A stretch of DNA of 64,000 nt, from assembly GCF_016863035.1 (NCBI RefSeq), contig NZ_BOOC01000031.1, forward strand, positions 62,001 to 126,000, written 5' to 3'. How positions within the stretch are numbered: the first letter of the stretch is position 1; every line of letters begins with the position of its first letter. This document shows, in pieces, positions 10,315 through 37,165 of the stretch. The notes beneath the pieces are model-generated. The model ran no database searches, was not told the DNA's origin, and worked only from the letters and a program-made list of their open reading frames with translations. The translations under genes and the position numbers were made by a program. The DNA comes from Microbispora corallina (lineage in GTDB: Bacteria > Actinomycetota > Actinomycetes > Streptosporangiales > Streptosporangiaceae).

Positions 10315-13300
10315 TCACCTCAGTCCGAAGGCCCGCACGATGGTCTGGCTGACGCTGTTGCCCACGGTGTCCTTGGCGAACGTGCGCAGCGTGACGGCGC
10401 CGGCCGAGCCGGGGGCGCGGAGCTTCGCCGTCCATCCCTTGTTCGTGCGGTCGAGGTGCGCCCTGGTCCACGTCGCCCCGTCGTCGTACGAGATGTCCAC
10501 GGTGATCGTGTCGATCGGACCGTTGTCCACCGCGGTCGGGATGTGCAGAGGAGTGACCGTCAGGTCCGCACGGCGTCCCGCCCGTCCCGCCGCGTCCAGG
10601 TCGACGTCGTAGTCGAGCTGGATCAGGGGCAGGTCCCTCGACGAGTCGCTCTCGACGTACCCCGACGTGAAGTTCCACTCGGTCAGGGTCCGGGTCGAGT
10701 ACGGGTACACCGAGGCATCGCGGGAGGCCTCGTTGACGAGCCGGTAGGGCAGCCGGTCGGGGCTGACCAACGGCACCATGGACAGGCCACGGTCGAGCCG
10801 TTCCGTCTTCACCTGGTCCACGAGGTCGTCGCCCTGGTAGAGGGAGATGGTCTGCGTGGCATACGGGTTGAAGAGCGCCTCACCCGCGTGGCTCCCGCCG
10901 GAGTCACCCCATGAGGGGACGGTGATCGCGAGCGCGTCGCCGCCGCGGTTCGGGAACGAGACCGAGTTCATCCGCGGGCGCTGGATGGGGCCGAACCAGC
11001 GGACCGAGGTGGTCGTGCCGCCCACGTAGGCGAGCCTCTCCGAGGACTCCTGGATCTCCGCCGGGATGACGAGCGCGTTCTCGAACCACGTGACGCCGCC
11101 GTCCGCGGACACCCAGTCGGTGCGCCTGCTCTGGGCGGGCATGGCGGTGAGGTAGCCGCTGACGCCCGCGCGCCCGTCGGGCTGGATGTCGTAGCGGGAC
11201 TCCATGGCCCTGTCCTGCTGGTAGTTCTCGAAGGAGACGTCGACGCGGGCCAGGTCGCCCTGCTTCGGGCGGTATGTCGGATCGGCCGGGACCGCTCCGT
11301 CCCACCAGTGCACGAGGTCGAAGAGATAGGCGACCTCCGGGTGGGAGACCACGTGCAGCGGCGTCCTCCCGTGCTGGACGCGGGAGATCAGCTGCTCGCC
11401 CTCGTCCCGGGTGATCGACGCCACCGGCAGCGGGGCGTCCGTCTGCACCGCGTCCCACGCGTCGAGCCGGCCGTACCCCGTGTTCACGATCAGGAGCAGC
11501 TTGGCCCCCGCCTTCGCGGCGGCGTCGGCCTGCGCCTCCGGCGCGACGTTGCCGGTCCAGCGCACCACGGCGACCTTGTCCCGGGCCTTCACCCGGGCGA
11601 AGTCCGCCGCGGAGCCCTCACCCGCGAAGACCGTGTCAAAGGTCCGCTGCCCCTCGGGCAGCGGCTTGAAGCGGGTCTGGAGGAGCAGGTCGTCGTAGTC
11701 GCGATCTCCCGTGGACACCGCGAGGCGGGGCTGCTCGTCACGCCAGCGCGCGCCGAAACGCAACGCCCCGTCGGTCGCCTTGTCGGTGGGCTGCGCCCAC
11801 ATGCTGTCGTACTGCCGGCCGAGCAGGTAGGAGTCGCCGATGCCGCCGTTGCCGAATCCGCGGAGGAAGTCGATCCTGGACTCCGCCGTGGTCCTCGGCT
11901 GGTCCCCGTCCGGGGGCAGGATGGTCCTGACCTGGTGTGCGGTGGAGGCGTCCAGGGTGACCTCCGTGTCGGCGGCGAGGTCGATCCGGGGCTTGCCGAG
12001 CAGGACCTTGCCGAGGGAGTACGGGCCGTGGACGCCCTGTACGTCGCCCCACATCCAGATGGCGTAGGTGCCGGTCGCCACTCGCAGCTCCGTTGTGCCG
12101 GAAGCGTCGACCGAGTAGTAGTCGATCGACTGGTGGCCGTTGGGCAGAAGGCGGGTCACCAGCAGGTCTCCGGCGAGGGGCTTGCCGTCCCTGTCCTTGG
12201 CGTGGACGGTGAGCCGCGCCCGCTCACCTTCCTTGTAGAAGCCGATCACGGTGTGGGCCAGCAGGGCGCCCTGGGCGTCGGACGCCTCGATCCGAGCGCT
12301 GAAGTGGCTGTCGAGATCCGCCCGGTCCAGGTTGGCTCTTACGGTCACGGTGCTCGTCCCGTGGGCCGGGATGGTGACCTGGGGCGTGGACAGCTCGAAC
12401 AGGCCCGCCGGGGCCCCGCCCGAGACGGCGAGGTCGAGGGTGACCGGGCTGTCACCCGTGTTGGTGTAGGTCACCGGACGCTCGGCCCGCTGGCCTGCCG
12501 TGTACGGCCACTTCGCCGCGATGAACGCCGTGCCGGTGGCGAAGACCGTGTTCCGAGCGGCCGACGCGACGTCGAGGAGGCCGCCGCCCACCTGGTATGC
12601 GTTGTACTGCCGGAGCAGTTTGCTGGTGCTGATCAGACCGTCCTTGAGCTGCTGCCCGGTCCAGTCCGGGTGAGCGGCCGCCAGCAGCGCGGCGGCTCCC
12701 GCGACATGCGGGGTGGCCATCGAGGTGCCGCTGAGGGTCTGGTAGGAGCCCTCGCCCTCGGACGTGTACTGCGACCGGGCGGCCAGCACGTTCACGCCGG
12801 GCGCGGCGATCTCCGGCTTGGGGGCGGAGTCGCCGACGCGCGGGCCGCGGCTGGAGAACGACGCGAGGGCCGTGCCCTTCGCGCCGACGCTCACGGCCGC
12901 CACCGAGAGCGCGGCGTCGGCGGTGCTCGGCGTGCTGACGGTCCCGGGCTCCGGGCCCGCGTTGCCGGCCGCGATGGTGAAGAGCGCGCCGGTCTCGGTG
13001 CTGAGCTTGTTGACGGCCTGGCTCAGCGGGTCGGTGCCGTCGGTGGGGCCGGCGCCGAGGCTCATGCTGATGACCTTGGCGTGCTGGTCGCGGGCGGCCC
13101 ATTCCATACCGGCGATGATCCAGGAGTCCTGGCCGCTTCCCGCGTTGGAGAGCACCTTGCCGATCAGGAGGTTCGCGCCGGGGGCGACGCCCCTTTCCAG
13201 TCCCCCCGAGGCTGCGCCGGTGCCGGCGATGGTCGAGGCGACATGAGTGCCGTGGCCGTTGTAGTCCTTGATGTCCTCATCGGGGACGAAGACGGCGGTG

Positions 13301-15559: not shown

Positions 15560-15877
15560 GTCACGTCCTTATCACGGCCGGCTATCTTCGCCGCCGAATA
15601 CTTCCTGGGTGAGCGAGCGCAGTAGTGATGGACCAAGAACGCACACTCCTGCCTATTGGCGATTGCGCGGTTTTCCCATGCACCGAGAAAGAATTTTTTA
15701 GCGCCCCAGGCTGCAATATCTGTAATGTCGCGTCCGCATTGCGGCCTATGAGGAAATCTGAATCAAACGCTCTGCCGCACTAAACCCGGCGCAGCTGCTG
15801 CAGTAGGCAGGCAACGCCCCAAGCGCGCGTCCGACCTCGGCATACCCAAAGCTAAGAGTCACGCCCCCGGGTGACGA
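15560..15877. other. Gene-free stretch, 318 bases, locally AT-rich
   Basis: Only short frames without protein-like pattern. Base composition falls around 15690-15770 (GAAAGAATTTTTTAGCG), typical of laterally acquired or non-coding DNA between the PAP2 gene and the SDR remnant. Confidence 0.5.
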
Positions 15878-16552
15878 TCACGCGTTCCAGCCGCCGTCTA
15901 CGCGGATTTCTCCGCCGGTCGTGTAGGAGGCATCGGGGCTCGCCAGGAAGGCGATCACACCGGCTACTTCGTCGGGAGACGCGTAGCGGTGGTAGGGCAG
16001 GAGGCCAAGGAGAAACTTGCCGAGGTCGCTTTCCTGGGGGATTCCCATGTCGGTGTCCGAGGGGCCGGGCAGGACCGCGTTGACCGTGATCCGCCGGGGT
16101 GCCAGGTCGTGGGCCCAGGAGCGTGTGTAGGCCGACACTGCGGCTTTCGTCGCCGCATAGTCCACGAGGCCGGCGGCGGCGCTGCGTTCCCCGTTGACAG
16201 AACCCATGTTGATGATGCGCCCGCCGTCAGGCATGGACTTGACCGCTTCCAGCGTGGTCGCGACCAAGCCCTGCACGTTCACGGCCCACTGGCGCGTGAT
16301 GTCGTCGAGTGACAGCGAGCCGATCGGGCCGGTGACGAAGACACCGGCATTGTTGACGAGTACGTCGATGCGGCCGAAGCGGTCCGCGACACCGCGCACC
16401 ATGCCGATGACCTCGTCCGGCTTGCCCTGGTCGGCCTGGAACGCCGCCGCTTTCACCCCGAGGCTGGTCAGCTCGTCGACCACTGCCTCGGCCTTGTCCT
16501 TCTCGTGGACGTAGGTGAGGGCGACATCTGCGCCTTCCCGTGCGAGGCGATC
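15878..16552 (-). pseudogene. SDR-family oxidoreductase, 5'-truncated by a Tn3 transposase fragment
   Basis: The C-terminal ~225 residues of an NAD(P)-dependent 3-oxoacyl-reductase-like SDR. Visible are RLAREGADVALTYVHEKDKA, the NNAGV motif, the Ser of MGSVNGERS, the catalytic YAATK (Tyr/Lys) and the C-terminal TTGGEIRVDGGWNA. The N-terminal strand and TGxxxGIG nucleotide loop (about 25-30 residues) are gone; at ~16550 the sequence switches to a transposase fragment on the opposite strand. The frame remains open beyond the junction but that extension is only the antisense of the transposase. Without the glycine-rich loop the enzyme should be inactive. Confidence 0.85.
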
Positions 16553-22730: not shown

Positions 22731-23329
<599 letters not shown>

Positions 23330-23402
23330 GGCGCGTATCGGGTTGTGATCAATGATCGGGATTCGCCCTTGCGGCAGGGCCTGATCCGGTAGGTCGTCAT
23401 GG

Positions 23403-25681
<2,279 letters not shown>

Positions 25682-29494: not shown

Positions 29495-30212
29495 TCACCG
29501 AGTGGACACCAAGACGACACCTGCAGATCGCCGGCGGCGGCAGGCCAATGTTTGAGACGAAGGCGTGAGGAGCGGTCATCCTTCCGACGACCAGGTTTCC
29601 ACGCTATTACCCGAGGTAGAGCGTCAAAACTGGTCACCTACGAAGTCCAACGCTCGAGGCGATGCCGCTGACGCAGGTACACGAGACCGTCGACCAGGCC
29701 GCCGGCGTAGGCGTCGCGCCAACAACGGTTCACAGTCACCACCACCGGGCCACTTCCCTAACCCACGCCCTTAGACGCCAAGCAATCGACTGGCGCACCG
29801 AGTGGGACCGGAGAAAGCTTCACCAGCGGAAACGACAGGCTTTGGCAGTGGCGGCGCCAAGTTTTGTCAGCAGTCAGCAACCTCGCGCCATGTTCTGTCA
29901 CCAGCCCCACGAGCTCTTACCAACAGGAAAGATCGGGAGTCCCAATTAAGATGGTCAGCTTGAATGCGATCCAAGCAGGTCAACGCACCTTCGGAGGAAG
30001 AGGCAGAGCCTCCCAGTGACAAAACTTGGCGCTAGTAGTGTCAATAACTTTACGCTCAACACTCGTCGCCGCCGGTCTCGCCGACCGGGGCGAGATCAAC
30101 GGCGTTCAGCGCGCCGTCCTGCACGGTTACGACGAGTCGGCATGAGCGACCCCGGCACAGATCACCGCCCGCCCTCACCGTAGCCCGCTGACCTGTACGT
30201 TCAGGAGAAACT
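29495..30212. other. Gene-poor stretch of ~700 bases between SNF2 gene and CRISPR region
   Basis: AT-richer than its surroundings. It contains the inverted/direct repeat set described separately and, at about 30050-30145 on the plus strand, a short protein-like frame (STLVAAGLADRGEINGVQRA, then VLHGYDESA and stop) that looks like the 3' end of a lost gene. Confidence 0.5.
29854..30032. repeat. 179-bp element bounded by 16-base inverted repeats, with an internal direct copy
   Basis: GCGCCAAGTTTTGTCA at 29854-29869 is repeated inverted at 30017-30032, perfectly. A third copy in direct orientation, GCGCCATGTTCTGTCACCAG (29885-29904), matches the first 20 bases at 17 positions with 31-base spacing. 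No open frame lies inside. It could be a miniature transposon end set or binding sites for a lost transposase; no target duplication is seen. Confidence 0.55.
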
Positions 30213-30503
30213 ATGATCGCGGGGACACACCACTACAAGGGCCGCTTCAAGCAGGAGTGCATGACGTTCAGCATCGCGGCCGCCATCATCGGGCCGAACA
30301 CGATGTTGCGCTCATCCTCGCGTCCTGGGACATGCCCAACCCCAGCAGGTCACAGCCGACATCGTCAGCTAGTTAATGCTGGAGGGCTGGCGGCCGACCG
30401 CCACCCCGCCTCGCTCTTCCCATCCCGACCAGACATCCGGTCGCCTCTCCCGAGATCTCCCGCCGCGGCGCCGACTTCATGTCGGGAGACTTGCGCCGGT
30501 TCA
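30213..30503. other. Stretch upstream of the CRISPR array
   Basis: No gene. A normal type I-E leader is AT-rich and directly precedes the first repeat; this stretch is GC-rich near the array, so the leader seems eroded or replaced. Confidence 0.4.
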
Positions 30504-30775
30504 GGATCATCCCCGCGTGCGCGGGGCTTCAGGGCCGGGCCGTCCAATGTGCTGGCCTGCATGGGATCATCCCCGCGTGCGCGGGGCCGACTTCCCGGAG
30601 GACTTCGACCCGACCGAGGGCCTGTGGATCATCCCCGCGTGCGCGGGGCCGACGAGGTGGAGTTCCGCAGGGTGCCGGTCGTGTAGGGATCATCCCCGCG
30701 TGCGCGGGGCCGACGCCCGGCACGCCGTGGTGATGCGCGGCCGCGAGGGATCATCCCCGCGTGCGCGGCGCGGCT
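30504..30775 (+). CRISPR. Orphan type I-E-like CRISPR array, five repeats and four spacers
   Basis: Repeats of 28 bases begin GGATCATCCCCGCG and continue TGCGCGGGGCCGAC, at 30504, 30564, 30626, 30687 and 30748. The first repeat differs in its last five bases and the fifth is degenerate after about 21 bases. Spacers are 32, 34, 33 and 33 bases, giving the ~61-base period of type I-E. The internal inverted repeat (CCCCGCG / CGCGGGG) gives the expected hairpin. No cas1, cas2, cas3 or Cascade gene is present in this window. A degenerate last repeat suggests plus-strand orientation with leader to the left, but both ends are eroded. Confidence 0.93.
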
Positions 30776-30997
30776 CGACGCGGGCGAGCGCTACCGGTCC
30801 CCGTCGGCGCAACGGCCCGACGAACTCCCGGTCGTGTACATCGACGGAGCCGTGCCACCCGTTCTGGAGTCGCTCGCGCGGGCCGTGATCGGCACCGCGG
30901 AGTCCCGGCGGGCGCACACCTGCGCCGAGGCCTACGCGCGTTCGCGGCGCCGGGGCGGGACGGCGGGCGGACCGCCCCGGCGGTCGCCGGCGGACAC
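30776..30997. other. Stretch right of the CRISPR array with a protein-like fragment
   Basis: The last repeat merges into a plus frame reading DELPVVYIDGAVPPVLESLA, RAVIGTAESRRAHTCAEAYA. It looks like coding DNA but has no start and no recognised family; probably a gene fragment whose 5' end was replaced by the array. Confidence 0.35.
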
Positions 30998-31561
30998 TCA
31001 GTCCTTGTTCGACTGCCGCCAGTCGCGCACCGCGTCACGGACCTTGTCGAACACCGCCACAGGCGGGCCGACCAGCATGTTCGCGGTGGCGGACTCGCCG
31101 GCGCCCGGGTGCGGGCGGGTGGGCGAGACCGCCTCGGCGGCCCGGACGGCCCCGGCCATCCGGCGCAGCCGATCAGGTGACGTCTCCTGTCGCAGCCGCG
31201 GAAACTCCTCCAGTTCCTCGTGCGTGGCGTGGTCGAGGACCGCCTTCTCCAGCGCGGCGAGCCGCACGTCGAACTCGGGGTGCTCGACGCCGAGGTCGTA
31301 CAGGTCGGAAAGCGCGTGCTTCGCCTCGTTCTCCTCGTTCAGCCGGGCCTCCACGATCTCGTCTCCCGCCTTCGACCGCGCCGCCGGGTGCACGACCTGC
31401 TCCTCGGCGCTCTCGTGCACGGCCAGCAGCCGCACCAGGTCGTGGAACAGCTCGCGCCTGCGGTCACCCCGCGCGCCGGCGACCTCCGCGAACATGGCCT
31501 TGATCTCGTTGTGCTGCGCCAGCAGCAGGTCGACGACGTCCTGCTCTCCGGTAGTGGTCAC
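30998..31561 (-). CDS. Hemerythrin HHE-domain protein
   Basis: A 187-residue cytoplasmic protein, by family a di-iron O2/NO or redox sensor. The HHE four-helix bundle covers residues ~8-150: LLLAQHNEIKAMF, LLAVHESAEEQVVHPAARS, LDHATHEELEEFPRL, which supply the iron-binding His and Glu set. The C-terminus holds SPTRPHPGAGESATANMLVG and a helix DKVRDAVRDWRQ. I chose GTG 31561 (MTTTGEQDVV) since GAAGGG lies 8 bases upstream; GTG 31570 is the alternative. A diverged copy of its C-terminal end occurs at 37.1 kb. Confidence 0.88.
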   Translation of the reverse strand: MTTTGEQDVVDLLLAQHNEIKAMFAEVAGARGDRRRELFHDLVRLLAVHESAEEQVVHPAARSKAGDEIVEARLNEENEAKHALSDLYDLGVEHPEFDVRLAALEKAVLDHATHEELEEFPRLRQETSPDRLRRMAGAVRAAEAVSPTRPHPGAGESATANMLVGPPVAVFDKVRDAVRDWRQSNKD

Positions 31562-31853
31562 TGCCGTCACCCTTCGACTCGGGGACTGCCACCCCCGCTG
31601 CCCGGCCCCCGTTCCGCTACACCCGCGAGCGGATCCCGCTCCGTACGAGACCGGCCGTCTCGGCGCCCGGCAGAACCAGGACACGGGCAGCAGGGCGTCG
31701 AGATCCTGCCGTCGGCGACCCGGAATCCGCTTCCGCGGGCGTAGATCATGTGGCGGGGAATCTGTAACATCTCATCGCACCGTGGATCTCTGGCGTGGTC
31801 GCCGGCTCGCGCTCCGGCGGCCGGCGTGAGCGCCGGAAGGACCGGAGGATGCC

Positions 31854-37038: not shown

Positions 37039-37165
37039 TCAGGCGTTGCGGAGACCCTCCCCGGCGAAGGCCGCCACGGCGTCGAGGCCGATGTAGACCA
37101 GGCCGGGTGCGGGCGGGTGGGCGAGATCGCCTCGGCGGCCCGGACCGCGCCGGCCCCCATTCTCG
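37039..37165 (-). pseudogene. Hemerythrin C-terminal fragment (paralog of the 31 kb gene)
   Basis: On the minus strand the stretch reads GAVRAAEAISPTRPHP, almost identical to GAVRAAEAVSPTRPHP in the hemerythrin at 31 kb; the plus-strand DNA is likewise near identical (GTGCGGGCGGGTGGGCGAGA). After a 1-base shift it continues GLVYIGLDAVAAFAGEGLRN and stops at 37039. Only the tail of the gene remains. Confidence 0.7.

Follow-up and report, generated by a model that had tools for sequence, protein, structure and literature searches.

A probable leaderless remnant of a type I-E CRISPR array in the draft genome of Microbispora corallina

Introduction

The presence of a short series of evenly spaced, near-identical repeats in the middle of a stretch of Microbispora corallina DNA raises the question of whether it is a CRISPR array that the cell can still use or what is left of one. 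The array lies at positions 30504-30775 of the window, by which we mean the whole stretch of 64,000 nucleotides that was analysed (NZ_BOOC01000031.1, positions 62,001 to 126,000). The first-pass annotation, made from the letters of the window, took it for an orphan type I-E-like array that a cas locus elsewhere might still serve in trans, and proposed that it should count as a dead relic if the genome held no I-E cas genes and the spacers had no matches. We studied the array itself, the cas genes of the genome, the relatives of the repeat, the flanks of the array, and the possible targets of its spacers.

Results

Anatomy of the array

The array consists of five I-E-type repeats and four spacers with a period of 60-62 bases. 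The 23-base core of the repeat, GGATCATCCCCGCGTGCGCGGGG, starts at 30504, 30564, 30626, 30687, and 30748 (spacing of 60, 62, 61, and 61), the fifth copy with one mismatch. The minus-strand consensus is GTCGGCCCCGCGCACGCGGGGATGATCC, completed by a single base that varies (from copy 5 to copy 1: C, C, A, C, and T); a length of 29 bases is the layout of I-E repeats. With repeats of 29 bases the spacers measure 31, 33, 32, and 32 bases; with repeats of 28 bases each is one base longer, which agrees with the five repeats and four spacers of 32-34 bases counted in the first-pass annotation. From left to right, and all on the minus strand, the array comprises the leader-distal repeat copy 1 (30503-30531), spacer 4 (31 bases, 30532-30562), copy 2 (30563-30591), spacer 3 (33 bases, 30592-30624), copy 3 (30625-30653), spacer 2 (32 bases, 30654-30685), copy 4 (30686-30714), spacer 1 (32 bases, 30715-30746), which is the closest to the expected site of the leader, and the leader-proximal copy 5 (30747-30775).

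Copies 2 to 4 are intact and identical over all 28 bases. The two end copies have diverged, as had been claimed, but not in the manner of an array eroded from both outer edges: the changes fall on the right-hand side in both, and in copy 1 this side faces the interior of the array. The last five plus-strand bases, CCGAC in the intact copies, read CTTCA in copy 1 (four of five changed, towards spacer 4) and CGGCT in copy 5 (three of five changed), which also has one change in the hairpin. Both copies keep the 3' handle, and their end changes are among the five outermost 5' bases. The hairpin, CCCCGC/GCGGGG, is also present in copy 1 when it is folded, and the predicted folding energies are -14.9 kcal/mol for the intact repeat, -12.9 for copy 1, and -9.2 for copy 5, the weaker fold.

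We searched the whole genome for the 23-mer with up to three mismatches and found six matches, which are the five copies of the array and one stray match with two mismatches in a selA gene on contig C18; the 3 kb locus around the latter holds no second repeat, and the backward control pattern gave no match in the whole genome. No other array with this repeat turned up in the draft genome, which measures 8.36 Mb in 121 contigs and is 97.94% complete.

Type and relatives of the repeat

The exact 28-base repeat occurs in four stretches of genome_contigs from three named species: Actinomadura sp. NBRC 104425 (two stretches), Actinomadura viridilutea, and Streptosporangium violaceochromogenes. In one of the former (L190, NZ_BSTN01000038.1), I-E cas7-cas5-cas6 precede the repeats, all above the curated I-E cut-offs, and neither cas1 nor cas2 gave a match within 8 kb. 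Because an identical repeat adjoins I-E genes in this other actinobacterium, the comparison shows the repeat of our array to be of type I-E, and the original typing stands. The two loci share a 61-base period and one identical 28-base copy, in L190 among near-identical ones. They differ in that L190 has cas7-cas5-cas6 and another of its repeats (locus position 2695) follows the leader motif GGTCAGCAAGT, whereas the array has neither. Another close relative is an array of the congener G014 (L073), whose repeat is one base apart (ATGTTCC for ATGATCC). It resembles ours in having no cas match in 19.9 kb and no Cas7e in its genome, but its matching repeats number twelve and its leader motif is intact.

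More broadly, the repeat core is found with up to two mismatches in 21 of 60 genomes, including that of M. corallina. Cas7e scores above its cut-off in only 4 of the 15 genomes of the genus (G001, G005, G008, and G010; our genome is among the 15), and its absence is therefore common in the genus. In G001 all eight I-E genes stand in one run. Five 3 kb loci of the same genus or family (L014, L016, L017, L020, and L012) carry one or two I-E-type repeats, which are possibly solo relics or chance occurrences. Two I-E-type arrays are also present in the Saccharomonospora phage PIS 136 (L092, JX006077.1; record positions 12840-13050 and 15680-15890). Each has four repeats behind the leader motif GGTCAGGAAGT, and one repeat of the eight is partly diverged; we found no Cas match in the 12 kb around them, and no literature connecting this phage with CRISPR.

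Missing leader and edges of the array

The position of the handle makes the minus strand the crRNA strand, with a transcript running from right to left, and the leader is therefore expected beyond the right end of copy 5. At 11 array starts of related loci (L073, L084, L086 twice, L087, L189, L008, L092 twice, L190, and L192), a motif resembling GGTCAG-N-AAG directly abuts the first repeat, at some of them with one or two changes; other array ends in relatives lack it, among them those of L013, L014, L024, and L026 and one in L190. The motif is absent from the 300 bases before copy 5, where even the closest matches differ at 4 of 10 positions and none ends at the repeat. This bears out the earlier observation that there is no leader. 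We had taken as marks of a type I-E array repeats of 28-29 bases, a C/G hairpin, a 3' handle, a 61-base period, spacers of 32-33 bases, and a leader directly before the first repeat. The array has the repeat length, the hairpin, the handle, a period of about 61 bases, and spacers of 31-33 bases; it has no such leader, and we therefore classed it as a remnant and not as a complete array.

On the left, the array may once have extended further. A stretch at 30455-30475 (minus strand) aligns locally to the repeat with small indels and a score of 26, which was reached by none of 1,000 shuffles of a 74-base stretch and by 32 of 1,000 shuffles of a 301-base stretch, and also by 0.8% of 1,711 pieces of the window (1.2% on the other strand). 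These frequencies make a sixth, decayed terminal repeat at this end suggestive only. On the right, a candidate further repeat at 30798-30821 was rejected: 142 of 1,000 shuffles score as high.

The right edge is also where, according to the first-pass annotation, the last repeat merges with a gene fragment, and we recovered this junction. A plus-strand fragment without its 5' part abuts copy 5 (30774-30998). From 30774 on the sequence is coding-like, with a G+C content of 0.79/0.67/0.91 at the three codon positions. Its own 75 amino acids have no Pfam match. They are 48% identical over 44 amino acids (E 1.6e-6; 21 of 42 residues identical) to a protein of the congener G012, with the similarity falling on residues 344-385 of 486. 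The G012 protein belongs to PF10011 (DUF2254, E 1.2e-51), the domain match covering its residues 29-355, and of the whole protein only residues 318-404 match the window significantly, at the site of the fragment. We thus describe the fragment as related to the genes of DUF2254 membrane proteins, an assignment made through its G012 relative.

Several other features lie near the array or elsewhere in the window. A MITE-like element, outside the array and to its left, spans 29853-30033 (perfect inverted repeats of 16 bases, separated by 147 bases; no strand assigned); its inverted repeats in their 17-base form are expected to match zero times by chance in the window, and among the loci checked (L0xx, L19x, and L2xx) the exact 16-mer occurs only in those overlapping this site. 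A piece of 53 bases at 37103-37155 resembles part of the hemerythrin gene, with identities of 90.6-94.3% to the gene in five congeners and of 88% to the genome's hemerythrin copy on contig C15; the window has its own hemerythrin gene (30998-31684) about 5.5 kb away. Further to the left, a GMC oxidoreductase gene is apparently split: its C-terminal domain is at 22838-23446 (minus strand, E 4.8e-42), a weak N-terminal match below the cut-off is at 24322-25443 (minus strand), and a DDE transposase frame (PF01609, E 4.3e-15) lies between the two parts at 23399-24391 (plus strand). We searched for the conserved position of the array in 11 stretches around arrays and hemerythrin relatives; at E 1e-10, only the hemerythrin gene, the 37103-37155 piece, and the arrays matched. 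No intact or empty version of the site was found in these stretches, nor with 229 bases of the right flank in 15 genomes.

cas genes in the genome

The window contains no cas gene at E 1e-4 in a tblastn search with 16 Cas proteins of two congeners, and in the rest of the genome we found only a fragment of Cas7e and matches to Cas3 below the cut-off. The array is thus an orphan, as described. Profile searches of the genome gave no match for Cse1, Cas1, or Cas6e. The Cas3 core model gave five matches to helicases, all below its curated cut-off (17.8-35.2 versus 102.45 bits). In 14 control genomes, this model had matches in all, 6 of them above the cut-off. The Cse1 and Cas6e models (PF09481 and PF08798) matched in only 2 of the 14 and missed Escherichia coli, which carries an I-E system, so that these models evidently miss divergent members. 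The Cas1 model matched in 10 of the 14, E. coli included, and the negative result for Cas1 is stronger than those for Cse1 and Cas6e.

The single Cas7e match is below the cut-off and covers profile positions 283-325. It corresponds to an 83-residue C-terminal stump on the minus strand of a separate contig (G000:C62:15766-16014; L083:9767-10015), which shares 77% identity with residues 306-388 of Cas7e from the congener G008. Its neighbours are an N-terminal fragment of an integrase (PF14659, E 1.4e-11) and a gene with a STAS domain. When the 9.2 kb cas operon of G008 was used as a DNA query, it retrieved 211 bp of the stump (82% identity) and a 59-base match on contig C36 (78%, E 1.3e-4); 40 of the 389 first-look candidates were scored, and Cse2, Cas5e, and Cas2 were covered by this query alone. 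The C36 match is probably due to chance because the 3 kb locus around it (L187) gave no match to any of the 16 Cas proteins.

The gene set of a functional I-E system (cas3, cse1, cse2, cas7, cas5, cas6e, cas1, and cas2) was thus not found, nor an I-E cas operon accompanied by the same repeat, for which the first-pass annotation had proposed to search the genome. Because the genome is a draft that is 97.94% complete, the case for the absence of the operon is strong but not final. We dropped a link between the stump and the array through the type of repeat, since the latter is not firmly coupled to the type of Cas7e. The operon of G008, whose Cas7e is nearest to the stump, has a different repeat type from the array; G010 has the repeat type of G008, yet its Cas7e is only 33% identical. 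The stump and the array may therefore come from one system or from two.

Spacer targets

We compared the spacers one at a time with phage and plasmid sequences (E up to 10) and considered 8 listed rows of the 8 to 275 records per search, with 40 further rows spread over the 275 records of the phage search of spacer 3. Among the matches listed for phages, plasmids, and viral_contigs, none of the four spacers has a significant full-length match. This gives no support to spacers that would be recognisable phage genes (the first-pass annotation had called their open frames consistent with phage genes), and the proposed comparison with phage and plasmid sequences returned no significant full-length target. 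The lowest E-values among the matches listed are those of spacer 3 with the ParB gene of Synechococcus phage MinM1 (E 0.002; ungapped 26/33) and with gp42 of Arthrobacter phage HunterDalle (E 0.007; 25/33), and that of spacer 1 with an Enterobacter plasmid (E 0.005; 26/32). The longest plasmid matches among those listed are also of spacer 1: all 32 bases at 87.5% with one gap in the gene of an iron ABC transporter permease (Tsukamurella plasmid, E 0.2), and its full length at 84.4% in that of a LacI regulator (Burkholderia plasmid, E 0.7). For spacer 2, the match is to FG-GAP protein genes on plasmids of Streptomyces and is 29 bases long (89.7%, E 0.06). The 40 spread rows for spacer 3 fall in unrelated genes. 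We read these phage and plasmid matches as coincidences among coding sequences in G+C-rich DNA. Eight half-spacer scans of viral_contigs gave at least 93 stretches (5, 3, 3, 0, at least 80, 0, 2, and 0), and the best full-length match among 93 of them is 26/32.

The spacers do read as open frames, as stated (23 of 24 frames). This is uninformative because it is expected at this G+C content: random 32-base pieces of the window are open in 86% of frames. By the rule that was set for a dead relic, under which the genome has no I-E cas genes and the spacers match nothing, the array is one. Most CRISPR spacers have no known target, however, and the lack of targets is therefore weak evidence on function.

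Discussion

Taken together, these results make it very probable that we see a dead relic: what is left of a type I-E array after the loss of its leader and cas operon. In the scenario that we infer, a rearrangement would have removed the leader and, presumably, an adjoining cas operon, and would have joined the array to the truncated DUF2254-related gene; its right-hand breakpoint would fall on the 5' side of the last remaining leader-proximal repeat or close to it. Without a leader and Cas1-Cas2, spacer gain would be impossible in cis, which agrees with the initial view that adaptation is unlikely at this locus. Without Cas6e and Cascade, a transcript, if any were made, would be neither processed nor used; the locus would then be silent and without function. 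Since decay has reached the end repeats but the three inner ones are still identical, the loss is probably not very old. Against a relic stand the perfect conservation of the inner repeats, such as a living array would show, and the missing part of the draft, in which a cas operon could sit. The limits of the Cse1 and Cas6e models and of the operon query, the lack of an intact or empty site among the sequences compared, and the array ends of relatives that have no leader motif also weigh against it.

The intact inner repeats and the draft state of the genome favour the best of the alternatives, in which the array is dormant but could still be used: it would be transcribed from outside, and I-E Cas proteins encoded either in an unassembled part of the genome or on an incoming plasmid or integrative element would serve it in trans. 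The stable hairpin of the inner repeats, the I-E cas genes next to the same repeat elsewhere, and the four congeners with Cas7e above the cut-off would also fit such an array. But the stump of Cas7e is the only Cas gene found, no spacer has a significant target, and the leader, which usually also holds the promoter, is missing. We consider this reading improbable. The service in trans suggested at first finds no provider in the genome as searched, where Cse1, Cas1, and Cas6e gave no match, Cas3 stays below the cut-off, and Cas7e is a stump. The more specific idea that the leaderless array is a small store of I-E guides, expressed from a promoter nearby and used only after the arrival of a mobile element that carries an I-E operon with a compatible Cas6e, is more doubtful still.

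Orphan arrays directed against I-F systems have been reported (Almendros et al. 2016, as cited in PMC6737040). An array whose spacers target cas genes and thereby exclude active I-E systems would explain why it is kept in a genome without them. We compared the spacers with seven cas loci (116,546 bases), the window with the array masked, three stretches of the same genome (one, L077, overlapping the first 7 kb of the window), and ten loci that come from relatives, from Actinomadura viridilutea, and from phage PIS 136, in 16 tests with 40 shuffled spacers each. The best matches to the cas loci, 22, 22, 22, and 20 of 31-33 bases, were equalled by 27, 5, 25, and 40 of the 40 shuffled spacers, which makes an anti-cas role very unlikely. 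Nothing in the 16 tests rose clearly above the shuffled spacers, for cas genes or for self-targeting; the strongest results, both in stretches of the same genome, were 22/31 for spacer 4 (2 of 40 shuffles) and 23/33 for spacer 3 (3 of 40). Finally, although the array lies within long open frames in a G+C-rich region, as a non-CRISPR repeat inside a gene might, its strict period of 60-62 bases, its unrelated spacers, and the identity over 28 bases with repeats that lie next to I-E cas genes in another genus refute this reading.

The leaderless remnant that we favour is an ordinary and known kind of element. In the account of orphan CRISPR arrays that PMC6737040 gives, arrays without cas genes are described as likely remnants of earlier systems. 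The present one resembles them in lacking cas genes and in its interpretation as what an earlier system left behind, and differs from that account in that its right edge is fused to a gene fragment and a cas stump stands elsewhere in the genome. As one more example of the decay of I-E systems, it has little significance alone. It does illustrate one state of this decay, in which the leader is gone, cas genes are not found, and the end repeats are eroding while the inner ones are still identical, and it shows that a draft genome can carry the remnant of an array and a stump of Cas7e on separate contigs.
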